Positions 2,775 through 51,533 of a stretch of 64,000 bases of DNA are shown piece after piece (the stretch's first letter is position 1; every line of letters starts with the position of its first letter). A model generated the notes under the pieces. The model had not been told where the DNA came from. It did no database searches and saw only the letters and a program-made list of their open reading frames with translations. Origin of the DNA: Desulfovibrionales bacterium (GTDB lineage: Bacteria > Desulfobacterota > QYQD01); the NCBI GenBank assembly GCA_028715605.1, contig JAQURM010000009.1:1-64000 (forward strand), in the 5' to 3' direction. Position numbers and translations under genes: made by a program.

Positions 2775-3116
2775 ATGCCCGACGAAAAATCGAAGTTAGT
2801 GTATTCCACAGAACAGGCGATCCCCCGGAAGGAGAACCCCGTTGCAAAGAATCTCCAGGCAGGCTTGCGTCCCGCGCAGCAGAAGGTTACTGTCCGGCTT
2901 GACCGGAAAGGCCGGGGCGGGAAGTCCGTCACGGTCATCGAGGGCTTACAGATGCCGCGGGAGGAAAGCGAGGCGCTCCTCAAGCAATTGAAGGCGAGGC
3001 TCGGCACGGGCGGCACGGTTAAGGATACCTCCCTCGAAATCCAGGGCGACCACCGTGACGCGATCATGATAGTGTTGGAGAAGATGGGCTGCAGACCGAA
3101 ACGCTCCGGCGGCTGA
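2775..3116 (+). CDS. SUI1/eIF1-family translation factor (YciH-like)
   Basis: A 113-residue protein with a basic N-terminal tail and a C-terminal SUI1 domain (VTVRLDRKGRGGKSVTVIEG, then LGTGGTVKD and IQGDHRDAI), the classic eIF1-fold signature. Bacterial YciH proteins associate with the small subunit and influence initiation fidelity, but their physiological role is not firmly set. It follows ettA by about 50 bases on the same strand and may share its transcript. Confidence 0.9.
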   Translation: MPDEKSKLVYSTEQAIPRKENPVAKNLQAGLRPAQQKVTVRLDRKGRGGKSVTVIEGLQMPREESEALLKQLKARLGTGGTVKDTSLEIQGDHRDAIMIVLEKMGCRPKRSGG

Positions 3117-3193
3117 GAATAGAAAAGGGTCTATAGACAAGGAAGAATTGCGGGATGACTTTTTTAATATAATCTCCCCTTCTATTTTTCCCC

Positions 3194-3222
3194 TTGACAA
3201 CTATTCCAGAACATCGTATTGT
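3194..3222 (+). promoter_or_regulatory. sigma70-type promoter for the cold-shock leader
   Basis: A perfect -35 TTGACA at 3194-3199 is followed, at exactly 17 bp, by TATTGT at 3217-3222, a good -10 box. Transcription would begin near 3229, giving a leader of about 110 bases before the cold-shock gene. Assigned by sequence only. Confidence 0.6.
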
Positions 3223-3258
3223 CACTCAGGAATTTTAGAAGTTTTTGCGTTTACAGAG

Positions 3259-3292
3259 GCCACAAAGACTTTTGACTTTGTGGCTTTTTTTT
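3259..3292 (+). terminator. intrinsic terminator or attenuator in the cold-shock leader
   Basis: A 9-bp perfect stem, GCCACAAAG pairing with CTTTGTGGC, is followed by eight T residues. It lies downstream of the promoter and 48 bases before the cold-shock start codon. It would end a transcript of about 64 nt or act as a leader attenuator. Confidence 0.75.
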
Positions 3293-3339
3293 GTTGAGGC
3301 CTTCTGAGATTTCAATTTATAGAAAAGGAGGTAAAAGAA

Positions 3340-3540
3340 ATGGCACAAGGAACTGTGAAATGGTTTAACGACAGCAAAGGTTTTGGTTTTATTGCTAACG
3401 ATGATGGAACTGAAGCTTTTGTCCACCACACGTCCATCCAAGGCGACGGATTTAAATCCCTTGCCGAAGGTGACAAGGTCAGCTTTGATACTGAAAAGGG
3501 CCCGAAAGGCCCCAAGGCAATCAATGTCGTAAAAGTCTAA
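3340..3540 (+). CDS. cold-shock protein, CspA family
   Basis: A 66-residue single cold-shock domain, full length. It carries RNP1 (KGFGFI) and RNP2 (EAFVHHTSI) within the five-stranded barrel that binds single-stranded RNA and DNA. CspA-type proteins melt RNA structure and act as anti-terminators. The start is well supported by AAGGAGG seven bases upstream. A strong terminator hairpin in its own leader suggests regulation at the RNA level, and a second hairpin follows the stop codon. Confidence 0.95.
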
Positions 3541-3548
3541 TTAGCGGG

Positions 3549-3578
3549 GCAAGGCTCTCTCACTGGAGGGAGCCTTGC
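3549..3578 (+). terminator. hairpin terminator after the cold-shock gene
   Basis: GCAAGGCTC pairs with GAGCCTTGC around a short loop, directly after the cold-shock stop codon. The T-run is weak, so the hairpin may also work as a 3' stabilising element. Confidence 0.6.
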
Positions 3579-3627
3579 ATCTTATAATGAAAACCTGCCC
3601 CCCCCGTCCTCACCAGACCGTTTTCAG

Positions 3628-5142
3628 TTAGTCATCTTCCTCCTGCTCATCCACTCTTTCCAGGCAATACGGGCCGTCAGGATCCTCAGGGAAATTACGC
3701 CCCTTTACCGCATAGAACGTCCCTGCATCCCAGCTTTTTGCAGAATCCTTTGATTCAATTTTCCATACGCTGGTTTGCGCCCTTGCGTTGAAGCCGATAT
3801 CATCCCAAATGGGTGTTTTGTTAAGTTTACCTTTCTTTACCAGTTCTTCATGGACGCACCTAAGCCCTTCGATTTCTGAACCATGCGGTTTTTCCCACCC
3901 GGTCCTGCTATGCCGGCAAAGGAAAAGATACCCTAAAGCTACATATCTGGGGGGCGGAACAATTTTCCATAAGGACCAAGCCCAATTAAAGCCGGAACCA
4001 GCGTCAGTCCAAACAATTTGAAAATCTATGGGCTTGGCAAGCGAGCCTGGTTTGGTTTCTTGGAGAATTACGGTCTTACCATCTTCCGGGCCTGAATAGT
4101 GGCCAATCCAATACCACCCAGAGCCGGTTTCAATAATCGGCCGGTAAACGGTCCATGGCTTCATTTTAAGTTTAATAAAAGGAGGTCTGGGGGTGACAGC
4201 TGATGGAGTCTGGGAAACCACATTGAAATTCTTGGTTTCTTTTACTTCAATTCCAAGGCTGCGCTGTTTGGCATATTCTCTAAATGCCTTTTTGAGGTCA
4301 TCAGTCCGTTTCTGTTTTCCTTCCGAAACCAATGTCCAGATTGGAATAAGGCTTTTTACATCAGGGAGTTCTATTAATCTCGGTTGATCAGCGATCGATT
4401 TCAACCAATCTGCGTAGAGCCTTGCATTGGGCTCACCTTCTACATCGAGTATTTTTAAACCGCCTACAGTTTTTGTGCGGGTAATCGATCTTTGATTGAA
4501 TTTGCTAATTTGTTCTTTATAAGTCTTACTGTCTGTAACCGAAATATTACCAATTGCGCTTTTTAAACTCATCTCTGCAACGGTAGTCAGAGTGCTTTCA
4601 GATTTGAAAGTCATCTTTTCAACAGCGCAGTTGTAGTCCAATCTCCCACCGATGATGATGTCTGCCAAATAATGTGTCCCATAATTATCGAATAATTCAA
4701 CAGGATCCATAGCATCAATATCCTGCCGGGCTTCCTCTAATACCATATTTCCTACATGCACGGGTAATCTTAGGCGGTAGGCCCGAACAACATTCTGTAC
4801 TGTTACAAATTCATATTCTCTGGACTGAAAGAGGGTTTTATCGAAGCCTACCTCCACGGAACCTGAAAAAAAAGCATACTTCCCTGCAATTTTTGTTGTT
4901 GAATTAAAACTACTGTAATATTCAAATATATCTTTGCCATAAACGTGAAGATAATCTGTATCCCCCATGGGTATGAAATCAATACATTCTGGTATTTCAT
5001 ATTGTTTCTGTCCCCAGGTCTCTGCTTTCATTTTCCGCCCAAAATCAAACAATGGTGCTTTTACAGATTTATTGTTAGCATACTCTCCAAAAACATCGTA
5101 GCCCCGTCCGATAGTTTCGCTACCTGAAATTGCACTACACAT
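3628..5142 (-). CDS. MACPF-domain protein with a Vps62-like C-terminal region
   Basis: A 504-residue protein. The N-terminal part (to about residue 290) resembles a membrane attack complex/perforin domain: GYDVFGEYAN near the start and the hallmark YGTHYLADIIIGGRL in the middle (pattern Y-G-T-H-Y then GG). After a proline-rich linker, the C-terminal part carries WTDAGSGFNWAWSLWK and PPRYVALGYLF, reminiscent of the Vps62/DUF946 family common in eukaryotes. No signal peptide is evident. The start is supported by GGGAGG seven bases upstream. MACPF proteins form pores; the target here is unknown. It stands alone, between a cold-shock gene and a RelE remnant, which suggests an acquired gene. The MACPF call is firm by motif; the Vps62 call is by pattern. 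Confidence 0.75.
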   Translation of the reverse strand: MCSAISGSETIGRGYDVFGEYANNKSVKAPLFDFGRKMKAETWGQKQYEIPECIDFIPMGDTDYLHVYGKDIFEYYSSFNSTTKIAGKYAFFSGSVEVGFDKTLFQSREYEFVTVQNVVRAYRLRLPVHVGNMVLEEARQDIDAMDPVELFDNYGTHYLADIIIGGRLDYNCAVEKMTFKSESTLTTVAEMSLKSAIGNISVTDSKTYKEQISKFNQRSITRTKTVGGLKILDVEGEPNARLYADWLKSIADQPRLIELPDVKSLIPIWTLVSEGKQKRTDDLKKAFREYAKQRSLGIEVKETKNFNVVSQTPSAVTPRPPFIKLKMKPWTVYRPIIETGSGWYWIGHYSGPEDGKTVILQETKPGSLAKPIDFQIVWTDAGSGFNWAWSLWKIVPPPRYVALGYLFLCRHSRTGWEKPHGSEIEGLRCVHEELVKKGKLNKTPIWDDIGFNARAQTSVWKIESKDSAKSWDAGTFYAVKGRNFPEDPDGPYCLERVDEQEEDD

Positions 5143-33724: not shown

Positions 33725-33940
33725 CGTGCAGTATAAAAACCCTATCCATGGGTTAAAGGGAACCCTGTGCAAATCAGGGACGGTCCCGCCGCTGTATTCG
33801 GGGACGAAACCCACCTTTAAAGCCACTGTCAAAAGAATCGGTTTAAACCGTTTAAACAGTTTGAACCGTTGAGTTGACGGGAAGGCGTGGGGAGTAGGCA
33901 GATCCGTGAGTCAGAAGACCTGCCCGGGACGTAAATAGAG
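33725..33940 (+). ncRNA. cobalamin riboswitch upstream of cobD
   Basis: Shows AAAGGGAACCCTGTG near the 5' end, GGACGGTCCCGCCGCTGTA, then AAAGCCACTG, GACGGGAAGGCG and the B12 box GAGTCAGAAGACCTGCC at 33908-33924, all in the order of the AdoCbl aptamer. The variable arm contains the palindromic GGTTTAAACCGTTTAAAC. A terminator follows at 33984, so control is probably by transcription termination of cobD-cbiB. Confidence 0.93.
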
Positions 33941-33983
33941 GCCTTTTTCTTCGCGGAAAAGAAGGGTGAAGTCAAGCGGGTGC

Positions 33984-36202: not shown

Positions 36203-36223
36203 AAACAAGCTTATAGGCATTAA

Positions 36224-36374
36224 GTCTGTCAGATCAAGGAAGCCGGTCAAAGGCCGGCGCTGCCCCGCAACTGTAGGCGGAACGAAATCCACGCAATACC
36301 ACTGATTCCTAAAAAGGGTTGGGAAGGTGTGGAGAGTAGGCCTTGCCGCAAGCCAGGAGACTTATCTGACAGAC
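36224..36374 (+). ncRNA. cobalamin riboswitch upstream of btuB
   Basis: The closing stem is GTCTGTCAGA at 36224-36233 with TCTGACAGAC at 36365-36374, a perfect 10-bp P1. Inside are GCGCTGCCCCGCAACTGTA, AATACCACTG, GGGAAGGTGTGGAG and AAGCCAGGAGACTTAT (B12 box variant). No terminator follows and the btuB ribosome binding site begins about 20 bases later, so translational control is likely. Confidence 0.93.
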
Positions 36375-36413
36375 TAAAAAACATCCTGACCGAGGGAGGA
36401 AGGAGAATTGGAA

Positions 36414-40991: not shown

Positions 40992-41686
40992 ACGTCTATC
41001 ATATTACATCGGGACAACCCCATAAGAAGGCCGCCGCCCTCTGGAGCGGAGGGAAAGACAGTTGTCTGGCCTGGCGGCTGGCCACGGAACAGGGTTATGA
41101 GGTGGCCACACTCGTCAATTTTTATAGCGGAGAACGATCCCGCTCGCACGGCCTGCCCACTGCACTGATCTGTGACCAAGCCAAGGCCGCCGGGATGTCC
41201 ATAATTCAGAAAGAAGTTAAAGGAAACTCTTACGAGGAAGCCTTTCGGAACACGCTGGCCGAATTAAAAGAACAGGGCATCGAAAACCTTATATGCGGTG
41301 ACATCAACCTTATGGAGCACAGGACGTGGCTGGAACGCGTAGCGGGAGAATCGGGGATTTCTCCGGTCTTTCCCCTCTGGGACAGGGATACCGGGGAACT
41401 TATGGCCGAGTTTGTAAGACGGAGATTTGAGGCCATCATCGTCGCCGCCCGCAGCGATATCCTGGGCAGGGAATGGCTGGGCTGTCCGATCGACGGCGAT
41501 TTCAGGCAAAAACTTGAAGGCCTGCCGTATAAAATCGACCCCTGCGGAGAGTTGGGCGAGTTTCATACCCTCGTCATCTCCGGGCCGGGGTGGCCGGGTC
41601 GGCTGAATATACTGGAAACAGCGCCAATCGAGGAGGATAGACACTATTTCTTAAATATCACGAGATGGGAAGTTGTAGGGCGGTAG
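40988..41686 (+). CDS. Dph6/MJ0570-type ATP pyrophosphatase in the B12 operon
   Basis: A 232-residue protein of the adenine nucleotide alpha-hydrolase-like family with the PP-loop AALWSGGKDSCLAW near residue 17, then GDINLMEHRTWLERV, VFPLWDRDTGELM and an FHTLVISGP end. Relatives include diphthine-ammonia ligase (Dph6), which makes an amide from a carboxylate; bacteria lack diphthamide. It overlaps btuD by 4 bases (ATGA), so it belongs to the riboswitch-controlled corrinoid uptake operon. Amidation or another adenylation in corrinoid salvage is an inference from place only. Confidence 0.75.
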   Translation: MNVYHITSGQPHKKAAALWSGGKDSCLAWRLATEQGYEVATLVNFYSGERSRSHGLPTALICDQAKAAGMSIIQKEVKGNSYEEAFRNTLAELKEQGIENLICGDINLMEHRTWLERVAGESGISPVFPLWDRDTGELMAEFVRRRFEAIIVAARSDILGREWLGCPIDGDFRQKLEGLPYKIDPCGELGEFHTLVISGPGWPGRLNILETAPIEEDRHYFLNITRWEVVGR

Positions 41687-41859
41687 GCTCATCCTTCTTA
41701 TTATCTCCCCTTTTAGTAAAGGTATGTCTCTTATGATCCCCACGCCTACTTTTTACCAGGAGTCCCCATTGTCCTTGCCTTTGTTAACTATCAGATTTTG
41801 ACATGAACAGGATTTTATGATATTTTTTAACCAATTCCAACTCTCAATAAGGTGATCAT

Positions 41860-42060
41860 ATGAAACTGCATGTGATAATTGAAAAGGATGAAGCTGGTTA
41901 CTATGTAGCCGAAGTTCCTGCACTTCCAGGATGTCTTTCCCAGGGGAAGACTTATGAAGAAGCCATTGCCAATATTAAGGAAGCCATTGAAGGGTGGCTT
42001 GAGGTGATGGAATCCAAACAGTCGTTTGATTCTACCAGACTTGTGGAAGTCGCCGTTTAA
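41860..42060 (+). CDS. hicB: HicB-family antitoxin
   Basis: A 66-residue HicB domain: MKLHVIIEKDEAGYYVAEVP, LPGCLSQGKTYEEAIANIKE and IEGWLEVME. This is the short form, without an obvious C-terminal DNA-binding part. It lies directly ahead of hicA with a one-base stop/start overlap (TAATG), so the order is antitoxin first. HicB binds and neutralises HicA. Confidence 0.9.
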   Translation: MKLHVIIEKDEAGYYVAEVPALPGCLSQGKTYEEAIANIKEAIEGWLEVMESKQSFDSTRLVEVAV

Positions 42061-42281
42061 TGGGTACAGATTTAAAACTCTGTTCAGGGGCCGAAGCAGT
42101 CCGAAAGTTTCAAAGAGCAGGTTGGTCTGCCGTCCGTCAAAAAGGCTCGCATGTAATGATGACAAAGCCCGGCTATCAGTGGACATTATCCATACCTCAA
42201 CACAGTGAGCTTGGCCCTGGCTTGCTTCGTAAATTGATCCGCCAGGCAGGTCTTACAATAGAAGAATTCAATGAAATATAA
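42060..42281 (+). CDS. hicA: HicA-family mRNA interferase toxin
   Basis: A 73-residue double-stranded-RNA-binding-like fold protein. AVRKFQRAGWSAVRQKGSHV holds the catalytic His of the G-S-H motif, followed by IPQHSELGPGLLRKLIRQAG, the family's C-terminal signature. HicA cleaves mRNA independently of, or with help from, ribosomes. It forms an operon with hicB at the edge of the Rhs accessory region. Confidence 0.9.
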   Translation: MGTDLKLCSGAEAVRKFQRAGWSAVRQKGSHVMMTKPGYQWTLSIPQHSELGPGLLRKLIRQAGLTIEEFNEI

Positions 42282-42354
42282 CGATCCATGCCTTATTTTA
42301 AGAAAATTTACCCACACTCTTTCACGATGAGTCTTTACTTAGTTATAGACGTTC

Positions 42355-42493
42355 CCATTTTTCCCCGCTCCTCTCATTGCCCCGAGCGGTAACATGATAA
42401 AACGCCCCCTCATATTCAATCCGTAACGGTCGAGCCATTATCCCTGCTAGTCTTGCCTGTCTTGCTTATTGTCCAATGTCAAGGGCTGACCCC
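42355..42493 (-). repeat. RAYT 5' stub repeat, copy i
   Basis: On the minus strand: GGGGTCAGCCCTTGACATTG, a leader, then ATG at 42438 and codons reading MARPLRIEYEGAFYHVTARG and NERSGEKW. That is the N-terminus of a REP-associated tyrosine transposase, cut after about 27 codons. Copies are at 44271-44408 and 49300-49437, and a leader-only copy is at 46138-46175. Here the stub is followed by a few codons and a stop rather than an Rhs tip. Confidence 0.8.
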
Positions 42494-42544
42494 TGACCCC
42501 TCTTTTGCCTCTTGCCTCTTGATTTTCTTTGGCTTTGCGCATCG

Positions 42545-42844
42545 CTACCGCGCCCCTGGATCTCTTGCGAACCAGAAAATCGCAACTATGAACGCAATAA
42601 GTAGCAACAGCACTCCCATTTCTATGCGCTTCGACCAAATTAGAAACCACGGGTTATGGCCTTGTCGCTCCGCGATCCGTTTTGCCTTACGGTAATCAAT
42701 AAACGGTGTGAGATTGAACGTGACATTCTCTGGTCGCTCTCCGTGTAACCTGAGATACCGACGAATCCAGATGGCCCAAATGAGATTTCCTGCCAAACCA
42801 AGCGCTATGGCGCCGCCTAAACAGATGTACGCGAAGACTTTCAT
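42545..42844 (-). CDS. small membrane protein, candidate immunity protein (type E)
   Basis: About 99 residues from the ATG at 42844 (MKVFAYICLGGAIALGLAGN), with one membrane helix at each end (the second is MGVLLLLIAFIVAIFWFA) and a basic cytoplasmic-type middle. No family recognised. It lies directly downstream of the remnant tip tail at 42849-42971 and upstream of a RAYT stub, the same order as the other tip-linked small proteins in this array. Immunity function is inferred from that order. Confidence 0.5.
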   Translation of the reverse strand: MKVFAYICLGGAIALGLAGNLIWAIWIRRYLRLHGERPENVTFNLTPFIDYRKAKRIAERQGHNPWFLIWSKRIEMGVLLLLIAFIVAIFWFARDPGAR

Positions 42845-42848
42845 AACG

Positions 42849-42971
42849 CTACCAACCATCGCATCGGATAGTTAAAGAATACTTCAGTTCCCGATCCTCC
42901 CAAAAACCGGATGTGACAGCATCCCGTCGCTCCGCTCCACAATTCCAGAAGGACTGTACCACTACTGTCCA
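42849..42971 (-). pseudogene. orphan tip tail, type E (tentative)
   Basis: Between a REP palindrome and the type E membrane-protein gene, one frame reads WTVVVQSFWNCGAERRDAVT and then GFWEDRELKYSL to a TAG. It has no start of its own. By position it matches the two better supported tails at 44694 and 45920. The frame is uncertain because another also stays open. Confidence 0.3.
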
Positions 42972-42973
42972 GT

Positions 42974-43111
42974 CCCGTAGGGTGGGCACAGCCCACCGTC
43001 TTTGTCGTCCTTCATTCTCCACCGACATCGATCGGAATCTCCACCAGTGTCGCACCCCAATCCAGCGAGTAGTGGTTTTGGTGGGCAAGATAAAGCTGTG
43101 CCCACCCTACG
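42974..43111 (-). repeat. REP-RAYT 3' stub-REP composite, copy 1
   Basis: Two REP palindromes (CCCGTAGGGTGGGCACAGCC side and TGTGCCCACCCTACG side) flank a 17-codon piece reading LDWGATLVEIPIDVGGE then TGA at 43012-43014. These are the last codons of the intact RAYT gene at 44945-45487. A copy of the same size is at 45998-46134. It resembles an internally deleted, non-autonomous derivative. Confidence 0.8.
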
Positions 43112-43130
43112 TTACCTTGCCTTGTCTTCG

Positions 43131-43490
43131 TTACTTTTCGTCCAAATCTTTCAGGTCCGGGTGCCTATCATAAAATCCTTCTAAACGTTCAAGTTCAATA
43201 TTGCATTTTGGACAATGTCGATCGGGAACAGTGTTTGATGCATATGTGTCTTTGCATCGACGACATATCAGATACTCTTCCTCTTTGAAAGCAAGCTCCG
43301 TTTTCTTCCGGATGCCCAGCCATACGCTGAGGCCTGCAATAATAAACGCGAGAATGCCCACTGGAATAGGAGCATCGCCAAGCATTATAGGCTCACCGTA
43401 ATGAGTCCATGCTCCGTGAACTATAATATCACATCCAATGATTACCGCGAATATCGCGCCAAAAAGAAAAATTATTCTCGCCACCATCAA
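43131..43490 (-). CDS. membrane protein with zinc ribbon, candidate immunity protein (type A)
   Basis: A 119-residue protein with two N-terminal membrane helices (IIFLFGAIFAVIIGCDIIV and PIPVGILAFIIAGLSVWLGI) and a C-terminal zinc ribbon (YLICRRCKDTY and HCPKCNIELERL). A clear paralogue is at 48150-48524, also right after a type A Rhs tip. It begins 15 bases after the Rhs unit at 43506-44273. Pairing with the same tip type twice supports a cognate immunity role. Confidence 0.6.
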   Translation of the reverse strand: MMVARIIFLFGAIFAVIIGCDIIVHGAWTHYGEPIMLGDAPIPVGILAFIIAGLSVWLGIRKKTELAFKEEEYLICRRCKDTYASNTVPDRHCPKCNIELERLEGFYDRHPDLKDLDEK

Positions 43491-43505
43491 GGGGCCCCTT
43501 TCAGA

Positions 43506-44273
43506 CTACTCGTCAAACCAGATCTTACCGAAATCTAGATCTCTTAACGCCTTCAATGCATCGACACCCAATTGTATCAGGACAGCCTCTGGAGTTGATG
43601 GTGGACCAGGCTGCAAAACATCGGGTATTATCTTATTTATGACTCTCTGCCCGTATTGGGTGCCCGCCGCAGCCATCCCGCTCGCATAAGTTGCCTTTAC
43701 GGCTGGGGCAGCGGTAGCGGCCTGTATCGCCGGCGTAGCGACCGCAGCGCCTGTACCAACAGCGGTGACTATCCCAGCAGTCTTGGCAATCTGCGGCAGA
43801 TTGTTCAGGCCACTCTGATTGACATAGTATTGTGTAAGAGAAGCACACCGGTCGGCAACACTGCACAACCCCAGCGGATCAATCAATACAATCGGATTAT
43901 TCCCCACATAGGCATACAGGTTCACATCCCCGCCCTCAAACCCTATCGGGTCTTCGGAGATGAACCGGCCTACGTTGGGGTCATAGTACCTGGCACGCAT
44001 GTAATAGAAGCCGTTAGGTTCGGTCATGACCCCGTACTGACCCACGAACTTAAAGGGCTGGGATATGGCTTCCTGCTGGTTCAAGACTTTTCCAAACGGA
44101 TCGTAGGCATATTTGTTCACCATGTTCTGGCTCTGATCGGTCATGGCTACGGTGCTGCCTGTGGCGTTGAAGTGGTAGCAATAGACCTGGTCTGAGGGTG
44201 TTACCATGGCCACCAAGCCAAGACCGTGGATGTAGTATCTGGTGATGTTGTTTGCGCCATCTGCCTCGGCCAT
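43506..44273 (-). CDS. displaced Rhs core with type A tip, unit 1
   Basis: A 255-residue protein: about 130 residues of Rhs core ending in DPNVGRFISEDPIGFEGG, NLYAYVGNNPIVLIDPLGLC, then a variable tip (SVADRCASLTQYYVNQSGL, an Ala/Thr-rich hydrophobic part and an acidic end). The ATG at 44273 has AGGAG 9 bases upstream, supplied by the RAYT stub repeat. Full Rhs proteins exceed 1000 residues, so this is an orphan tip unit. Tips of Rhs proteins are usually toxins cut at the DPxG junction. The tip's activity is not recognised. Confidence 0.75.
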   Translation of the reverse strand: MAEADGANNITRYYIHGLGLVAMVTPSDQVYCYHFNATGSTVAMTDQSQNMVNKYAYDPFGKVLNQQEAISQPFKFVGQYGVMTEPNGFYYMRARYYDPNVGRFISEDPIGFEGGDVNLYAYVGNNPIVLIDPLGLCSVADRCASLTQYYVNQSGLNNLPQIAKTAGIVTAVGTGAAVATPAIQAATAAPAVKATYASGMAAAGTQYGQRVINKIIPDVLQPGPPSTPEAVLIQLGVDALKALRDLDFGKIWFDE

Positions 44274-44408
44274 TTTTCCCCGCTCCTCTCGTTGCCCCGA
44301 GCGGTAACATGATAAAACGCCCCCTCATATTCAATCCGTAACGGTCGAGCCATTATCCCTGCTAGTCCTGCCTGTCTTGCTTATTGTCCAATGTCAAGGG
44401 CTGACCCC
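44271..44408 (-). repeat. RAYT 5' stub repeat, copy ii
   Basis: Same as 42355-42493: stub ATG at 44353, coding through GNERSGEK, and then direct fusion to the Rhs reading. The junction GGGGAAAAATGG is shared by all three copies. AGGAG at 44283-44287 (minus sense) serves the Rhs ATG at 44273. Confidence 0.85.
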
Positions 44409-44437
44409 CCTTGACCCCCGCATTGCTTCAGCCCACC

Positions 44438-44689
44438 CTACATGGCTGCTCCGATAATGAGGAGAATTATGCCGACGAAAAGAAAAGCGGCACCAAATTT
44501 AAGCAGCTTGATATCAGCGGGTGTCGGTTTCTTTGTCAGGCTCCGGTAGTAACCGCCATGCCGAGCTGCATGCCTCTGCTGTACTACTGCAAAGCAAATA
44601 CTAGCTACAGTAATACACGTTAGTCCTGACCAAGATATGATCTCATAACACTGCATTATGCTTCTCATATAAAGACACGTTTGGGGCAA
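44438..44689 (-). CDS. small two-helix membrane protein, candidate immunity protein (type C)
   Basis: An 83-residue protein with helices around SGLTCITVASICFAVV and LLKFGAAFLFVGIILLIIGA and a basic loop between. It follows the type C orphan tip tail by 4 bases. No family recognised. Immunity role inferred by analogy with its neighbours. Confidence 0.5.
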   Translation of the reverse strand: MPQTCLYMRSIMQCYEIISWSGLTCITVASICFAVVQQRHAARHGGYYRSLTKKPTPADIKLLKFGAAFLFVGIILLIIGAAM

Positions 44690-44693
44690 TAGT

Positions 44694-44906
44694 TCATTGC
44701 CCGGTAATCCACTTAAGAACGCCTTCTATCCCGCTAGCAAGTCCCTTGGTGAAGCGTTCCATTGTCGTACTGACGTTGACTTGTGGAATACCAAGACCAG
44801 CACCTACACGAATCGATTGTCTACTCCGGTCAATGTTTGAAGAATAACTAAGATATTTGCTTCCTGCACTTACGCTCACAAAGATGTCATCCTTTGGATT
44901 CCGAGT
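44694..44906 (-). pseudogene. orphan Rhs-type tip tail, type C
   Basis: A 70-codon frame from the REP palindrome to a stop at 44694: KDDIFVSVSAGSKYLSYSSN, RVGAGLGIPQVNVS and MERFTKGLASGIEGVLKWIT. It has no start codon with a binding site and no core in front, so it is a truncated tip. The Ser/Gly-rich pattern resembles polymorphic-toxin tails. It keeps its small membrane protein immediately downstream. Confidence 0.45.
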
Positions 44907-44931
44907 CCCGTAGGGTGGGCACAGCCCACCG
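44907..44931. repeat. REP palindrome downstream of the RAYT gene
   Basis: CCCGTAGGGTGGGCACAGCC followed by CACCG: a GGTGGGC/GCCCACC hairpin with an ACA loop, 14 bases after the RAYT stop codon. Confidence 0.8.
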
Positions 44932-44944
44932 TCCTTGTCGTCCT

Positions 44945-45487
44945 TCATTCTCCACCGACATCGATCGGAATCTCCACCGGTGTCGCACCCCAATCCGGCA
45001 AATAGATTTCCTTCTCAACATAGCGATGAAAAGTCGAATACGGCCAGTCCTTCGGTGCATCCACAATCCGATGCCTTACCGGATTGTAATGGATGTAATC
45101 ACAATGAGCCGAAAAGTCCCGGTCGTCTCTAATCATGTGTTCCCAAAATCTTCGTTGCCACACCGTGGCCTCTCTGTGCTTTTCCCGGGAGGTAGTCCCC
45201 TTCGGCCGGTCAAACCACACCTTGGATCCTTTCGTAAATTCCGCCTTGATTAATCCCCACCGCAGTGAATAGTTCATATCCCCCTGGGGCAGCCGCCAAA
45301 TACAATGCATATGATCCGGCAGCAAAACCCACGCTTCGATAATAAAAGGATGCGAGCCACGGACCTTGAAAAGGATTTCACGTAACAGGTCTCTCGATTC
45401 CGGGAGACATAGAATCGGTTGCCGTCGATATGTAACAACCGTGAAGAAATACGCATGCCCCTCCCGTGCCCGTCGATAGTTTGGCAT
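44945..45487 (-). CDS. REP-associated tyrosine transposase (RAYT, Y1/IS200-like)
   Basis: A 180-residue HUH transposase: HAYFFTVVTYRRQPIL at the N-terminus, the HUH pair in WVLLPDHMHCIWRLP, and a catalytic Tyr probably in CDYIHYNPVRHRI. The end reads PDWGATPVEIPIDVGGE. It appears intact. REP palindromes lie on both sides (44907-44931 and 45528-45586). RAYTs act on REP hairpins and are usually domesticated single-copy genes. Its 3' end is duplicated in two short REP-flanked copies nearby. Confidence 0.9.
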   Translation of the reverse strand: MPNYRRAREGHAYFFTVVTYRRQPILCLPESRDLLREILFKVRGSHPFIIEAWVLLPDHMHCIWRLPQGDMNYSLRWGLIKAEFTKGSKVWFDRPKGTTSREKHREATVWQRRFWEHMIRDDRDFSAHCDYIHYNPVRHRIVDAPKDWPYSTFHRYVEKEIYLPDWGATPVEIPIDVGGE

Positions 45488-45527
45488 TTTTATGCAACCA
45501 GCATCAGCAATATACCCGCGTGATTTC

Positions 45528-45586
45528 GGTGGGCATTGCCCACCCTACCAGGCTACGTTACATGGTGAACACAGCCCACCCTACTT
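45528..45586. repeat. REP palindromes upstream of the RAYT gene
   Basis: Two REP units: GGTGGGCATTGCCCACCCTA and GGTGAACACAGCCCACCCTA, in direct order about 35 bases apart. With the downstream unit they bracket the RAYT gene. Confidence 0.8.
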
Positions 45587-45913
45587 GGGTGTTTTTTTAT
45601 TTCCATCTTTTCTTATAAAATCAATTAGTAATTTTGTGACATATACTGCATGGACAAAAATGGGTGCTGATAATGCGCCCGAACCTGGCTGTCGTGTTAA
45701 TAAAGTATAAATGATGATTAAGACAGCGACAAATTTAAGAATAATAATTTTAAAAAATCCATGCCTTCTATGAAAATCAAAGTATTCATTTTCTAATAAT
45801 GGCTTACGAGATTTAATTAGAAAAATTAAAAAGGTATCGATAGTTATAAAACATAAAAGAACGGATATAAGCACTACCCTTATCAACGTCGCAATTTTTG
45901 TAGAAAATATCAT
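45581..45913 (-). CDS. membrane protein, candidate immunity protein (type D)
   Basis: A 110-residue protein with about three membrane helices (LIRVVLISVLLCFITIDTFL, IIILKFVAVLIIIYTLL and a weaker third) and a lysine-rich end. Markedly A+T-rich compared with the window, which suggests acquisition. It lies 6 bases after the type D tip tail. Family not recognised. Confidence 0.5.
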   Translation of the reverse strand: MIFSTKIATLIRVVLISVLLCFITIDTFLIFLIKSRKPLLENEYFDFHRRHGFFKIIILKFVAVLIIIYTLLTRQPGSGALSAPIFVHAVYVTKLLIDFIRKDGNKKTPK

Positions 45914-45919
45914 ATAAAT

Positions 45920-45997
45920 CTATTTCCCATACCACCATTTTCGAAGATTCTCTATCCGTCTACCAATTCTTTCTGCCATCTCGCGAAATTCTTCAGT
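45920..45997 (-). pseudogene. orphan tip tail, type D
   Basis: A 25-codon frame from a REP palindrome to a stop: EEFREMAERIGRRIENLRKW and WYGK. Too short to function. Its value is positional: it directly precedes a membrane-protein gene, as do the longer tips. Confidence 0.35.
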
Positions 45998-46134
45998 CCC
46001 GTAGGGTGGGCACAGCCCACCGTCTTTGTCGTCCTTCATTCTCCACCGACATCGATCGGAATCTCCACCGGTGTCGCACCCCAATCCAGCGAGTAGTGGT
46101 TTTGGTGGGCAAGATAAAGCTGTGCCCACCCTAC
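45998..46134 (-). repeat. REP-RAYT 3' stub-REP composite, copy 2
   Basis: Same arrangement and length as 42974-43111: REP, 17-codon RAYT end with TGA at 46036-46038, REP. Copies 1 and 2 differ at few positions, including A/G in the TCCACCAGTG/TCCACCGGTG stretch. Confidence 0.8.
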
Positions 46135-46137
46135 TTG

Positions 46138-46175
46138 GCTGTCTTGCTTATTGTCCAATGTCAAGGGCTGACCCC
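46138..46175 (-). repeat. RAYT 5' leader, partial copy iv
   Basis: Only the upstream leader part (GGGGTCAGCCCTTGACATTG to AAGCAAGACAG on the minus strand) is kept, directly joined to a REP-3' stub composite. This is what an internally deleted RAYT would look like. Confidence 0.65.
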
Positions 46176-46191
46176 TTGCTCCCCACAAGGC

Positions 46192-46440
46192 TTAAAAATG
46201 TCCTCCGAAAAACAAATTTTCGTTCCCGTGAAATCCATAGTACCTAACTAAGCCCTTGTAGAAGCTGTAAAGTGCCGTAAAGAGGAAAACAGGGAACCCG
46301 AGAAGGACAATTACCATGATACTCCGGCTATCCATGCCCAGTAGAGCAAGGATAGTTACTCCAATTATGAGGCCTAAGGTCAACGAGAATACAATCAAAA
46401 AGATGTATTTTCTTATCGAGTACCGCACGTTGCTAGCCAT
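46192..46440 (-). CDS. small two-helix membrane protein, candidate immunity protein (type B)
   Basis: An 82-residue protein with two helices (IFLIVFSLTLGLIIGVTILA and IMVIVLLGFPVFLFTALYSF) and the end YYGFHGNENLFFGGHF. A paralogue at 49480-49725 shares the YSI(R/K)KY start, SRSI centre and the same ending. Both follow type B Rhs tips. The repeated pairing supports a cognate function. Confidence 0.6.
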   Translation of the reverse strand: MASNVRYSIRKYIFLIVFSLTLGLIIGVTILALLGMDSRSIMVIVLLGFPVFLFTALYSFYKGLVRYYGFHGNENLFFGGHF

Positions 46441-46475
46441 TTGTAAGCCTCTATTTCGCTACTTTTACAGATTTG

Positions 46476-47280
46476 CTAATGCTTTGGGAAAAAATCAAAC
46501 TTGGGTATAAGATCAAACCATTTAGGCAAATTAAATCGGTGCCTTAATTGGTCAGAAATTATGTCAGCACCTATTGCTATTTGGCTGAGTCCTCCGACGG
46601 CAGTGACTGCGCCAGCCGCACCTACTACGACTCCAGCAGGTCCAGTAACAGGCGTACTTACAAGCCCCGCTCCGGCTGTTATCGCGCCAGCCCCAGTGGT
46701 TACGGTACCGCTTGTAATCAAGCCTCCCGCAACGAGATATGGTGAAAAAGGCTTTTCGATATACTTTACATATGCTTCTGGAAGATTACTGTTAGAAGCA
46801 AGAAGTATATTTCTATTAACTGTAGGTGCCGTCGCCGTTTTGGCACACAACCCTAACGGATCGATCCTGTTCACCGGATTGGCGCCGACGTAATTGTACA
46901 GATTCACATCTCCACCCTCAAACCCAATCGGGTCTTCGGAGATGAACCGGCCTACGTTGGGGTCATAGTACCTGGCACGCATGTAATAGAAGCCGTTAGG
47001 TTCGGTCATGACGCCGTACTGCCCCACAAATTTGAAGGGCTGGGATATGGTCCCTTCCTGATTTGTGACCTTGCCAAACGGATCGTAGGCATATTTGTTC
47101 ACCATGTTCTGGCTCTGATCGGTCATGGCTACCGTGCTGCCTGTGGTATTGAAGTGGTAGCAATAGACCTGATCTGATGGTGTCACCATAGCCATAAGTC
47201 CAAGACCGTGGATGTAGTATCTGGTAATGTTGTTTGCGCCATCTGCCTCGGCCAAAAGGTTCCCGGCTATATCTAATTGA
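46476..47280 (-). pseudogene. Rhs core fragment with type B tip, unit 2
   Basis: From DIAGNLLAEADGANNITRYY through the core (DPNVGRFISEDPIGFEGG, NPVNRIDPLGLC) to a type B tip: TVNRNILLASNSNLPEAYV, a long Gly/Ala/Thr-rich hydrophobic stretch and the ending HRFNLPKWFDLIP. The frame stays open to 47738 but that part is antisense to a VapBC-like pair. The 5' boundary differs from units 1 and 3, and no start with a binding site is seen, so it may be silent. Confidence 0.65.
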
Positions 47281-47332
47281 CTAACCCCTTTGATTTTGGT
47301 AATCTTACAAAAAAATGACCAAGGTGAGAACG

Positions 47333-47575
47333 ATGCCTGTCCAAGCCGAAAAACAGAAAAAAATAATAAATATTTTGAAAAAGTTACCCCCTGAAAAACT
47401 TGACGAGATAATAGACTTTGCCGAATTTTTGAAAAATAAAAGAAAAGCGCCGCCAGGGTTAAGCAAGAAAACCCCGCCTCTGACAATTCCGACCTTTCAT
47501 CTCGGTCATATCGCGAAACAGGCATTTGACCGGAATAAACTTTACGGGGAATACCTTGACCACAAAATTGATTGA
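47333..47575 (+). CDS. DUF2281/VapB-like antitoxin
   Basis: About 80 residues from the ATG at 47333, chosen for AAGGTGAG upstream (an ATG at 47315 is also in frame). IINILKKLPPEKLDEIIDFA and EFLKNKRKA are the DUF2281-type helical N-terminus; the end is a short acidic-basic tail. It overlaps the following PIN toxin. Opposite in strand to the Rhs array. Confidence 0.8.
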   Translation: MPVQAEKQKKIINILKKLPPEKLDEIIDFAEFLKNKRKAPPGLSKKTPPLTIPTFHLGHIAKQAFDRNKLYGEYLDHKID

Positions 47576-47993
47576 TACAAACATCCTTGTATACGCCAAC
47601 AACGAGGATTCGAAATTCCATGCTGTCTGCAAATCCCTTGTTGAAAAAGCTGTAAACGGCAGGATAAAAACCGTTGTCTCTGTCCAAAACCTCATGGAAC
47701 TCTATGCCGTTATCACTGATCAAAGAAGGGTCGAACATCCTCTATCCCCGATAAAAGCAAGACAACTCATTGAATTTTATAAAAGTAGTCATATCCGGGT
47801 CATAGTCCCCCTGGCTCAAACTGTGGATACCGTAACCAAGCTCATCGAAAAACACGGTCCCAAGTCGCAGTCTGTCTTCGACTACCTTCTCGTAGCCACT
47901 ATGCTGGATAACGGTGTCCATGGAATTTATACTGCCAACAGCGAACACTTTAAGCATTTCGATTCCATCAAAGTCATCAACCCGATCTCCTAA
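47526..47993 (+). CDS. PIN-domain toxin (VapC-like ribonuclease)
   Basis: Up to 155 residues; a TTG at 47556 (LTTKLIDTNILVYAN) is an alternative start close to the family norm. Acidic PIN residues: Asp in LIDTNILVYAN, Glu in QNLMELYAVI, and Asp in SVFDYLLVATM. VapC toxins cleave specific RNAs. It overlaps its antitoxin gene, as in most vapBC operons. The pair sits between Rhs units 2 and 3. Confidence 0.88.
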   Translation: MTGINFTGNTLTTKLIDTNILVYANNEDSKFHAVCKSLVEKAVNGRIKTVVSVQNLMELYAVITDQRRVEHPLSPIKARQLIEFYKSSHIRVIVPLAQTVDTVTKLIEKHGPKSQSVFDYLLVATMLDNGVHGIYTANSEHFKHFDSIKVINPIS

Positions 47994-48110
47994 ATAAAAA
48001 AGCTGAAGGCCAGAACCATAGACATGATCCATCCCTTAAGGCTGCGTGTGCTCTTCATCTTACCTCCGGTGCATGGTAAAAGTTGGTTCGTATGCTCTCA
48101 TGTGCAACGC

Positions 48111-48146
48111 TTTTGGTGGGCACGATAATGCTGTGCCCACCCTACG
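48111..48146. repeat. solitary REP unit
   Basis: TTTTGGTGGGCACGATAATG and then CTGTGCCCACCCTACG, nearly the same as the second REP of each composite. It lies directly after the type A membrane-protein gene, mirroring 43076-43111. Confidence 0.75.
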
Positions 48147-48149
48147 TTA

Positions 48150-48524
48150 TTACATCTCCTCATGAGGCTTTTCTTGGCCCAAGTCTTTCAGCTTCGGATG
48201 TCTGTCGTAAAAGCCGCTCAGCGGCTCTAGCTGCGCATTGCATTTCAGACAACGGCAATCTGGAACCTTATCTGAAGTGTATACTTCTTTGCATTCAGGA
48301 CATATTAAATATTCTTGTTCGTAAATACGCGCTGTCTTTTTTCGGATACCCAGCCATATGTTTAGGCCTGCAATGATGAAAGAAACAATCGCTACAGGAA
48401 TAGTAGTTTCACCGAGTTTGATGAATTCACCGAAATAAAGAAACCCTTTCTCCATCATGATTAGAACACCGAACACTGTAAAAACAACTCCACCTGCGAT
48501 AAACATTATTCTTGTCATCATCAA
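48150..48524 (-). CDS. membrane protein with zinc ribbon, candidate immunity protein (type A, second copy)
   Basis: A 124-residue paralogue of the protein at 43131-43490: helices IMFIAGGVVFTVFGVLIMM and IPVAIVSFIIAGLNIWLGI, then YLICPECKEVYTSDKVPDCR and CLKCNAQLEPLSGFYDRHP. It starts 10 bases after Rhs unit 3. Confidence 0.6.
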   Translation of the reverse strand: MMMTRIMFIAGGVVFTVFGVLIMMEKGFLYFGEFIKLGETTIPVAIVSFIIAGLNIWLGIRKKTARIYEQEYLICPECKEVYTSDKVPDCRCLKCNAQLEPLSGFYDRHPKLKDLGQEKPHEEM

Positions 48525-48534
48525 AGACTAGCCT

Positions 48535-49302
48535 CTAATAATCTAATATACGTTTTTCACTGTGATTACCCAACATATGTATTGCCCATTTTAATAGCTC
48601 TATTACTACTTGGGTGGTTTGCCCTCCACGAGTGCTCGGCGGTCCTGGCGTCAAAACATCAGAAATCGTCCTTAAAATTCTCTGACCCTCTGGCGTTCCG
48701 GCCGCAGCCATGGCTCCAGAATACGCCGTTCTAGCGGCTGGAACAGCGGCCTGTATCGCCGGCGTAGCGACCGCAGCGCCTATACCAACAGCGGTGACTA
48801 TCCCAGCGGTCTTGGCAATCTGCGGCAGATTGTTCAGGCCACTCTGATTGACATAGTATTGTGTAAGAGAAGCACACCGGTCGGCAACACTGCACACTCC
48901 CAGCGGATCAATCAACATAATCGGATTATTTCCCACATACGCATACAGATTCACATCCCCGCCTTCAAACCCGATCGGGTCTTCGGAGATGAACCGGCCT
49001 ACGTTGGGGTCATAGTATCTGGCCCGCATATAATAGAAGCCGTTGGGTTCGGTCATGACTCCGTACTGACCCACGAACTTAAAGGGCTGGGATATGGCTT
49101 CCTGCTGGTTCAAGACTTTTCCAAACGGATCGTAGGCATATTTGTTCACTATGTTCTGGCTCTGATCGGTCATGGCTACGGTGCTGCCGATGGCATTGAA
49201 ATGGTAACAATAGACCTCATCTGATGGAGTCACCATAGCCATAAGTCCAAGACCGTGGATGTAGTATCTGGTAATGTTGTTTGCGCCATCTGCCTCGGCC
49301 AT
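48535..49302 (-). CDS. displaced Rhs core with type A tip, unit 3
   Basis: A 255-residue protein of the same size as unit 1 and nearly identical in core and first half of the tip (SVADRCASLTQYYVNQSGL), but different at the end (VVIELLKWAIHMLGNHSEKR versus an acidic end in unit 1). The ATG at 49302 has AGGAG 9 bases upstream from the RAYT stub. The divergence of only the last residues is what recombination or diversifying selection on a tip would give. Confidence 0.75.
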   Translation of the reverse strand: MAEADGANNITRYYIHGLGLMAMVTPSDEVYCYHFNAIGSTVAMTDQSQNIVNKYAYDPFGKVLNQQEAISQPFKFVGQYGVMTEPNGFYYMRARYYDPNVGRFISEDPIGFEGGDVNLYAYVGNNPIMLIDPLGVCSVADRCASLTQYYVNQSGLNNLPQIAKTAGIVTAVGIGAAVATPAIQAAVPAARTAYSGAMAAAGTPEGQRILRTISDVLTPGPPSTRGGQTTQVVIELLKWAIHMLGNHSEKRILDY

Positions 49303-49437
49303 TTTTCCCCGCTCCTCTCGTTGCCCCGAGCGGTAACATGATAAAACGCCCCCTCATATTCAATCCGTAACGGTCGAGCCATTATCCCTGCTAGTCCTGC
49401 CTGTCTTGCTTATTGTCCAATGTCAAGGGCTGACCCC
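49300..49437 (-). repeat. RAYT 5' stub repeat, copy iii
   Basis: Essentially identical to copy ii. Stub ATG at 49382. AGGAG at 49312-49316 (minus sense). The leader is followed by a short duplicated GGCTGACCCCTTTAGC tract at 49429-49470. Confidence 0.85.
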
Positions 49438-49479
49438 TTTAGCTTTTTAGGGCTGACCCCTTTAGCTTTTTTTAGCTTT

Positions 49480-49725
49480 TTAAAAGTGTCCTCCAAAGAA
49501 AAGGTTCTCGTTGCTCTGAAATCCATAATACTTAACCAGACCCTTGTAAAAACCGTAAATGGTGCAGAAGAGGAAGACAGGGAATGCCATAATAATAATT
49601 GCTAAAATAGAGCGACTATTCAAGCCTACCATACTAAAGATAGCTACACTGATTATAAGACCTACAGTGGACGAAAAAGTTAGCAACAACATGTACTTTT
49701 TTATTGAATACCGTGGACGGCTCAT
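49480..49725 (-). CDS. small two-helix membrane protein, candidate immunity protein (type B, second copy)
   Basis: An 81-residue paralogue of the 46192-46440 protein: YSIKKYMLLLTFSSTVGLII, ILAIIIMAFPVFLFCTIYGF and the ending YYGFQSNENLFFGGHF. It follows Rhs unit 4 by 19 bases. Confidence 0.6.
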   Translation of the reverse strand: MSRPRYSIKKYMLLLTFSSTVGLIISVAIFSMVGLNSRSILAIIIMAFPVFLFCTIYGFYKGLVKYYGFQSNENLFFGGHF

Positions 49726-49744
49726 TGCTTAATTCCTCCACTTG

Positions 49745-50740
49745 CTAGTGCTTTTGGAAAAAATCGAACTGGGGTATAAGATCGAACCACTTAGGCAGGT
49801 TAAAATTATGTCTTATTTGGTCAACATAAATGTCAAGCCCTACGGCAACTTGCCCAACTCCAGTTGCGGTAGTAACTAGTCCCGCAGTGCCCACTGCAAA
49901 TCCAGCAGGCCCGGTTACTGGTATACTTCCATATCCTATAACAGTCGTTGTACCCCCAGCCATTGTAGTCGCAATACCACTTGAAATTAATCCTCCTGCC
50001 ACAACATATGGTTGAACTGGTCCTTCCACCTCTACATATGCTTCCGGAAGATTAATGTTAGAAGCAAGAAGTGTATTTCTATTAACTGTAGGTACCGTCG
50101 CCGTTTTAGCACACAGCCCCAGCGGATCAATCAACATAATCGGATTATTTCCCACATACGCATACAGATTCACATCCCCGCCCTCAAACCCGATCGGGTC
50201 TTCGGAGATGAACCGGCCTACGTTGGGGTCATAGTACCTAGCCCGCATGTAGTAGAAGCCGTTCGGTTCGGTCATGACGCCGAACTAACCCACAAAGGTG
50301 AAGGGCTGGGATATGGTCTCTACCTGGTTCAAGACCTTGCCAAAAGGATCATAGGCATATTTGTTCACCACGGTCTGGCTGCTATCGGTCATGGCTACGG
50401 CGCTGCCTGTGGCATTGAAGTGGTAGCAATAGACCTGGTCTGATGGGGTCACCATAGCCAGAAGCCCCTGGCCGTGGATGTAGTACCTAGTGATGGTGTT
50501 TGCACCATCTGCCTCGGCTAAGAGGTTCCCGGCGGCATCGTAGATATAGCGGGTAGTGACCCCGTTTCTTACCGCCTCCAGCCGCCTGCCGCTTCCATTA
50601 TAATATAACTCAGTAGAAGTTCCAATACTAATCAGCCGGTGCTCGTAGTCAAAAGAGTATGTGGATCCGTAGCCGGAATAGAGTTGTCCCTCGTTATCGT
50701 AGCTGAAACTCGCCCCTCCGGCAGACATCACGTGGTGCAC
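49745..50740 (-). pseudogene. Rhs core with type B tip, unit 4, interrupted by an amber codon
   Basis: One 331-codon frame with a single TAG at 50285-50287, where the other units have CAG (Gln in FVGQYGVM). It carries the longest core of the four, starting with two YD-type repeats (FSYDNEGQLYSGYGSTYSFD, YIYDAAGNLLAEADG), then DPNVGRFISEDPIGFEGG, a type B tip (TVNRNTLLASNINLPEAYV) and ending NFNLPKWFDLIPQFDFF. No start codon with a clear ribosome binding site; the parental Rhs gene is truncated near 50780. It is the 5'-most unit of the array. Confidence 0.75.
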
Positions 50741-50800
50741 TTGCCACTTGAATTTACCCTTGACTGCCGGGCATTATCTTGCTACTAAGTAAACACAAAA

Positions 50801-50985
50801 TAGGCCCTGACGGTGATCCGCCTCCGGCGGATAGAATAGGGAATCCCGTGAGAACCGGGAACGGACCCGCCGCTGTAACCAGGGACGAAAGCCGCATTTA
50901 AAGCCACTGCCCGCCGCAGGCGGATGGGAAGGCGCGGTAAGTAGGACGATCTGGGAGTCAGAAGACCTGCCGACAGGGATCAGTT
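50801..50985 (+). ncRNA. cobalamin riboswitch upstream of the ThiC-family gene
   Basis: Contains AGGGAATCCCGTGAG, GGACCCGCCGCTGTAACC, AAAGCCACTGCC, TGGGAAGGCGCGG and the B12 box GAGTCAGAAGACCTGCC at 50955-50971. Two TCCGCC/GGCGGA-type palindromes (50817-50831 and 50910-50924) are embedded, one before the core and one in the variable arm. A terminator follows. Confidence 0.93.
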
Positions 50986-50998
50986 TTGCGGGAGATGG

Positions 50999-51041
50999 TA
51001 AATCCCCAGACTCTTATTTAGAGAGTTTGGGGATTTTTTTA
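50999..51041 (+). terminator. riboswitch-linked intrinsic terminator
   Basis: AAATCCCCAGACTCT pairs with AGAGTTTGGGGATTT (one mismatch side) and is followed by a run of Ts. Located about 25 bases after the aptamer. Confidence 0.88.
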
Positions 51042-51533
51042 TTCTAGGCAAGAGAAATAAGCCACAGAGGACACAGGGTGCACAGAGCAAGGTAAAGAAA
51101 TCAAAAGAAAAAGACAGAACAGTTAAGAAAAAAAGTAACGCTTTAGCCCTTTATAAAACTTCAAGCAGAATATGTCGGGAGTCCAAAAACACTAGGGCCG
51201 TAGTAAGCACATTGTCATTCCGGCGAAAGCCGGAATCCAGTTTTTTTATTTCGTGGCTTGGCCTCTGGATTCCGTGTCAAGCACGGAATGACAGAAAAGA
51301 GTTTTTGCAAAGAACTAAATTGTTACGAAAGAAATAGTTTTATGGGCGCTTCCGGGATCTGTGTACTTTCCAAGTCTGTAATTAAGCCATTTTCTGGAGA
51401 CAAACAAGGACATTGGAGAAAATGGGGAGGGAAGGAACCAAATTCTGCTTTAACTTGCTTATATCTCTGTGTTCTCTGTGCCCTCTGTGGCAAGATTCTT
51501 GACATTACGGTATCAAGTATAAGGAGGTATCAA
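51042..51533. repeat. nested inverted repeats between riboswitch and ThiC-family gene
   Basis: Outer pair: CCACAGAGGACACAGGGTGC near 51062 and, inverted, TGTGCCCTCTGTGG near 51477. Inner pair: GTCATTCCGGCGAAAGCCGG near 51213 and CCGTGTCAAGCACGGAATGA near 51271. The segment has open frames but none with support. It looks like interspersed-repeat insertions that lengthened the leader to about 490 bases. Confidence 0.6.

Follow-up and report, generated by a model that had tools for sequence, protein, structure and literature searches.

REP doublets forming hairpins (REPINs) and bacterial interspersed mosaic elements (BIMEs) combine two inverted repetitive extragenic palindromic (REP) hairpins carrying the tetranucleotide GTAG within one long hairpin, and are found in high copy number in genomes that contain a REP-associated tyrosine transposase (RAYT; Bertels and Rainey, 2011, PMC3116915). 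With respect to their origin, a derivation from REPs surrounding an ancestral IS200-like element has been proposed (PMC3116915, 2011). RAYTs of group 2 (subclass 2.2, PMC6006769) or REPtrons, which include TnpA-REP of Escherichia coli (PDB 4ER8), comprise about 165–180 residues with DHMH, WE and YIHYNP motifs, are flanked by GTAG-REPs with CT dinucleotides nearby, usually occur as single copies and are held to be immobile. TnpA-REP acts on REP DNA in single-stranded form, which is cleaved and recombined at C/T (the slash marking the site of cleavage or joining), located either 5' or 3' of the REP (PMC8266576). Finally, miniature inverted-repeat transposable elements (MITEs) of the IS200/IS605 family and palindrome-associated transposable elements (PATEs) have kept only the ends of an autonomous element, have lost its internal gene and are presumed to be mobilized in trans (PMC7290912). 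Here we describe short composite elements in a stretch of 64,000 nucleotides from a Desulfovibrionales bacterium (the window; GenBank assembly GCA_028715605.1, contig JAQURM010000009.1), in which two REP hairpins enclose the 3' coding end of a RAYT gene and which probably are non-autonomous miniature elements of a REPIN- or MITE-like kind that emerged from a RAYT element by internal deletion.

The genome encompasses 2.56 Mb on 25 contigs, with the contig of the window labelled C9 and other relevant contigs C1, C4, C5, C8, C10, C12, C18, C19 and C24. For comparison, we have used a sister species (G001) and three further congeners (G002, G003 and G004). The window contains two composites at 42970–43116 and 45994–46141, neither assigned to a strand, whose 141-bp repeat cores (42970–43110 and 45994–46134) are 99% identical, which excludes an origin by chance. 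Composite 1 starts with a left REP on the forward strand (42977–42997), consisting of GTAG and the hairpin GGTGGGCACAGCCCACC, and continues with a RAYT 3' coding stub of about 20 codons on the reverse strand (43012–43071, stop codon at 43012–43014), which is joined at 43071/43072, a C/T on the coding strand, to a short segment beside the right REP on the reverse strand (43080–43110), where a long-loop hairpin of the type GGTGGGCAAGATAAAGCTGTGCCCACC (43080–43106) is followed by CTAC. The right REP of composite 2 (46104–46134, reverse strand) shows the same organization, with the hairpin at 46104–46130 preceding CTAC. The two REPs are inverted with respect to each other, and both composites fold as a single long hairpin (z = –5.94 and –5.25) with a terminal stem of about 16 bp. 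The first-pass annotation, which was made from the sequence alone, had described two elements of 137–138 bp with two REP hairpins around 17 codons of a RAYT gene; repeats and hairpins are as it proposed and its codon count is correct, if slightly low for these two copies, whereas the length amounts to 141–148 bp once terminal nucleotides are included.

A sequence search has identified a third composite in this genome (C19:16889–17015) and a fourth copy in the sister species G001 (C3:247083–247210), both of a shorter 127-bp form. When read in the RAYT frame, the stub of composite 2 ends in ...DWGATPVEIPIDVGGE and that of the two 127-bp copies in WGATPVEIPIDV.GE, each followed by the stop codon. 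The flanks of composites 1 and 2 are unrelated on either side and their similarity does not exceed that of shuffled sequences, on which ground we have rejected a segmental duplication of the composites including their flanks. Compared to REPINs, the composites stand out by a spacer made of a RAYT 3' coding end and by their presence in only three to four copies. Compared to ends-only MITEs and PATEs, they stem from a RAYT instead of an insertion sequence and have retained part of the coding end. We consider them as variant of the REPIN/MITE theme and not as new kind of system. Our searches of the open-access literature did not yield a description of an intermediate with a RAYT coding stub.

The identity of the stub becomes evident from a comparison with an intact RAYT element located between the two composites (44903–45555, no strand assigned), which contains a left REP, the gene (44945–45487, reverse strand), a right REP of the short-loop type GGTGGGCATTGCCCACC (45528–45548) and terminal AG and CT dinucleotides. 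In line with its initial assignment, the gene encodes an intact RAYT of 180 residues, which scores 188.8 bits against the NCBIfam model REP_Tyr_transpos (cut-off 80 bits), matches the structure of E. coli TnpA-REP (4ER8) with an E-value of 1.9e-37, displays the DHMH (the HuH motif), WE and YIHYNP motifs of subclass 2.2, equivalent to group 2, and is flanked by REPs with a 5' GTAG. Its 3' end and the adjoining REP (44903–45005) are 95–96% identical to the left ~102 bp of the composites. Since the C-terminal DWG...GE tail is retained at the end of RAYTs from Nitrospirae, Deltaproteobacteria, Gammaproteobacteria, cyanobacteria and other groups, the stub is a genuine transposase C-terminus and not a feature of the REP. 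The opposite assumption, named in the first-pass annotation as the finding that would refute it, is that the 17-codon match reflects a motif conserved together with REPs and has nothing to do with the transposase. It could appeal to the stronger conservation of the left ~100 bp compared to the 5' half of the gene between RAYT subtypes, but this conservation spans the entire 3' ~250 bp of the gene and thus extends beyond the stub, and short REPINs of the same genome do not contain the stub at all. Together with the retention of the DWG...GE residues across phyla, this makes such a motif exceedingly improbable.

The same comparison revealed that RAYT subtypes of the genus are mosaics, which are about 92% alike in their 3' ~250 bp and only about 55–78% in most of the 5' part (with the elements at C9:44903 and G001 C10:116073 differing from those on C8, C18 and at C9:96278), a pattern that suggests recombination or gene conversion between paralogues. 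In a metagenome-assembled genome of the Oxalobacteraceae (stretch L152, 654–3145), the end of a RAYT frame overlaps with REP units that recur several times in its vicinity, with a REP inserted at or in the 3' end of the gene.

Despite its proximity, the gene at 44945–45487 was ruled out as direct parent of the composites by its short-loop right REP, and we regard it as cousin. Within this genome, we found long-loop REPs in the three composites and at three solitary positions, and none beside a RAYT. In G001, in contrast, an intact element encoding a 180-residue RAYT (C10:116073–116735) carries both composite-type ends, with 95% identity in the left and 94.6% in the right long-loop REP, and the right end of a second element of this type is found on C5 of G003. 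Because the intact G001 copy combines both ends, the parent type is a RAYT element of 652 bp with these two REPs, and the composite corresponds to this element minus about 510 bp. The internal deletion suggested by the first-pass annotation is thus supported with respect to the descent from the RAYT family, whereas the adjacent gene is not the direct parent.

Intermediate sizes are represented in the genus as well. Besides the intact RAYT elements, of which four are found in this genome (two on C9 and one each on C8 and C18, all four confirmed as 180-residue open reading frames) and one in G001 (C10), there is an element of about 360 bp at C24:10314–10672 with about 291 bp missing internally, a 183-bp form in G001 (C3:244604–244797) that has retained the left 145 bp, the 141-bp form of the window with the left ~103 bp and the 127-bp form with the left 89 bp, whose joint is identical at its two addresses. 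REPINs of 68 bp without stub are present in about 12 copies, most of them crowded into 26 kb at about 368–394 kb of C1, with single copies on C4, C10 and C12. The coexistence of full-size, part-deleted, end-plus-stub and end-only forms in one genus offers a rare view of how RAYT elements may become REPINs. Truncated RAYT 3' ends were found at C5:2269, in G001 (C10:117424) and in G002 (C29), and a more complex one at C52 of G002. Two of these (C5:2269–2390 and G001 C10:117424–117545) share an identical truncation, joined in both species to the same sequence (GCTGTTATCAAAA...), which is a repeat in the genus.

The ancestor of the composites would have been an element of about 650 bp, in which one GTAG-REP was located at the 3' end of the gene and a second, inverted one of the long-loop type preceded the start of the gene. 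By loss of about 510 bp, nearly the entire gene would have been removed, leaving the last ~15–20 codons joined to a short segment beside the right REP, with the joint at a CT in position +8 on the 3' side of the hairpin. Since both recognition hairpins are kept, the product is predicted to have remained a substrate for a RAYT acting in trans, and the 141-bp form would later have come to occupy several addresses. The composites might alternatively be chimeras, in which a solitary long-loop REP was joined to a RAYT 3' end by ectopic recombination in a shuffled island of RHS tips and toxin-antitoxin modules, without ever having been a deleted element. Such a scenario finds material in the solitary long-loop REPs with similar inner flank at C19:15433, C19:17498, in the window (48111–48146, reverse strand) and at several sites on C3 of G001, and in the frequent rearrangements around REPs described below. 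However, it becomes unnecessary in light of an intact RAYT with exactly both ends, and it does not account for a joint that is identical at more than one address or for the 183-bp and 360-bp internal deletions of similar kind. We therefore regard a chimeric origin as improbable.

A potential mechanism for the internal deletion is suggested by the sequence at the joint. In REPs of the right type, a CT is found exactly at position +8 3' of the hairpin on the coding strand in 15 of 42 cases, with 0–1 at adjacent offsets, and 51 out of 80 REPs contain an AG at position –6 before GTAG compared to about 5 at most other offsets; REP counts throughout were drawn from sequence searches and individual stretches, and those given here include related copies and are thus not independent. 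The joint of the composites falls exactly on the CT at +8 of the right hairpin and, in composites 1 and 2, the partner side is also C/T, with the parent reading GAAATC/TACTCGCC in the alignment. The same CT defines the right breakpoint in the two 127-bp copies, and the breakpoint is close to it in the 183-bp form and the G002 forms. Similarly, the junction between host sequence and REP at C19:15433 is C/T, as judged from the unrearranged flank in G001 (AAAATTCAG/GTG). Because most deletions end at the CT beside the right REP, matching the dinucleotide cleaved by TnpA-REP, a joint made by the RAYT in a cut-and-join reaction is plausible, with chances that are perhaps even. Beyond the joint itself, we infer that the copies would have spread by RAYT-driven transposition instead of gene conversion or island duplication. 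The recurrence of a known cleavage dinucleotide makes the conversion of RAYTs into REPINs a testable proposition.

Several observations weigh against our account of the composites. The parent type is located in a sister species and not in this genome, the joint of the 127-bp form does not contain C/T on the stub side in the known parents, that of the 183-bp form fits only after two substitutions, and the C24 deletion is incompatible with C/T. Moreover, the joints of the 141-bp and 127-bp forms may reflect one event followed by a loss of 12 bp, leaving few independent events. In our search with joined flanks against the four congeners, we did not find a two-sided empty site for either composites or RAYT copies. 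Finally, a route that is independent of a RAYT is documented in the cyanobacterium Nostocales HT-58-2 (CP019636.1; stretch L146), where an internally deleted RAYT (3774–4056), an independent case of the derivatives that the first-pass annotation had called rarely seen, resides beside an intact one (2920–3613) and 10-bp direct repeats CTATGCGGCA delimit the deletion. Slippage during replication or microhomology between short repeats, with no part played by RAYT catalysis and with the shared right breakpoint reflecting selection for the REP hairpin or common ancestry, is favored by this case, by the absence of a CT in the C24 deletion and by the joint at C52 of G002, which falls within the 7-nt microhomology GCACTGC. 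It less readily explains why the right breakpoint coincides with the same CT in both composite forms and is near in others, and why the junction at C19:15433 is exactly C/T. Altogether, we consider slippage nearly an even prospect as mechanism of the joint, which leaves the origin of the composites by internal deletion unaffected.

A second question concerns the mobility of the RAYT itself. Two elements of 652 bp (C8:16654–17305 and C18:27646–28297, the latter 138 bp from the contig end) share 98.8% identity over their full extent, which is bounded by the AG preceding GTAG and the CT following CTAC, and their flanks are unrelated. As two such similar elements occupy unrelated sites, it appears that in this genus the RAYT is mobile as an entire unit, in contrast to the predominantly single-copy, immobile members of its family, although gene conversion or ectopic recombination is a possible alternative source of these copies. 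In the comparison with congeners, a match was obtained for only one of the two flanks, as in the case of the copy at C9:96278, whose right flank starts directly after the terminal CT in G002 and G004. It is conceivable, if rather doubtful, that the RAYT makes REPINs from its own element by cutting at internal CTs as well as at the one located 3' of the right REP and by rejoining the ends, thereby deleting its own gene stepwise to 183-, 141-, 127- and finally 68-bp units, which it would then spread while still being self-mobile. In that case, the RAYT of this genus would offer a living example of the REPIN-RAYT system prior to its domestication. Irrespective of this possibility, the genus displays a mobile-looking RAYT beside its deleted forms, in a family held to be single-copy and immobile.

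The elements of the window are enclosed in a block of about 9.8 kb (41677–51521), which contains RHS-core tips, HicAB, a PIN/DUF2281 pair and small genes. The orthologous site of G002 lacks this block, with 11 bp separating the flanks, and pieces of it are found in G001 at a different locus that is equivalent to C19 of this genome. As the borders of its modules are marked by REPs and fragments of Y1 transposases, recombination at these sequences has probably shuffled modules of RHS tips and toxin-antitoxin systems.

One of these fragments abuts composite 2 on its outside and had initially been taken as leader of an internally deleted RAYT. This leader (46138–46176, reverse strand) contains GGGGTCAG, which fits the end motif GGGGWSAS of TIRYTs, the Y1 transposases of TIRtrons (PMC3733652), and reads into MARPLRIEY..., but only a 5' fragment is found here, as neighbor and not as part of the composite. 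The sequence from 46138 comprises 43 nt and corresponds to the last part of a 140-nt Y1-transposase 5' fragment present in four copies, the others being located on the reverse strand at 42355–42494 (leader and 28 codons, MARPLRIEYEGAFYHVTARGNERSGEKW), 44270–44408 and 49299–49438. A scan of the 28-residue fragment against NCBIfam gave no match, and none to the leader emerged in the C1 stretch that contains the other Y1_Tnp match. In G002, the fragment extends as longer N-terminus of a Y1 transposase and, based on this copy and on the N-termini of known Y1 transposases, we assign it to this class. The interpretation as 5' remnant of a deleted RAYT had thus to be abandoned, since the leader belongs to a Y1 transposase of the MARPLRIEY type, is joined outside the right REP and is missing in composites 1 and 3. 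As the composite of G001 shares the leader on its right side, the junction is old, yet it is uninformative on how the composites have formed.

A scan against Rfam gave no match in the region of composites and RAYT and detected only cobalamin riboswitches elsewhere, with three of them following each other on the forward strand within 17 kb (33734–33941, 36213–36384 and 50794–50988).

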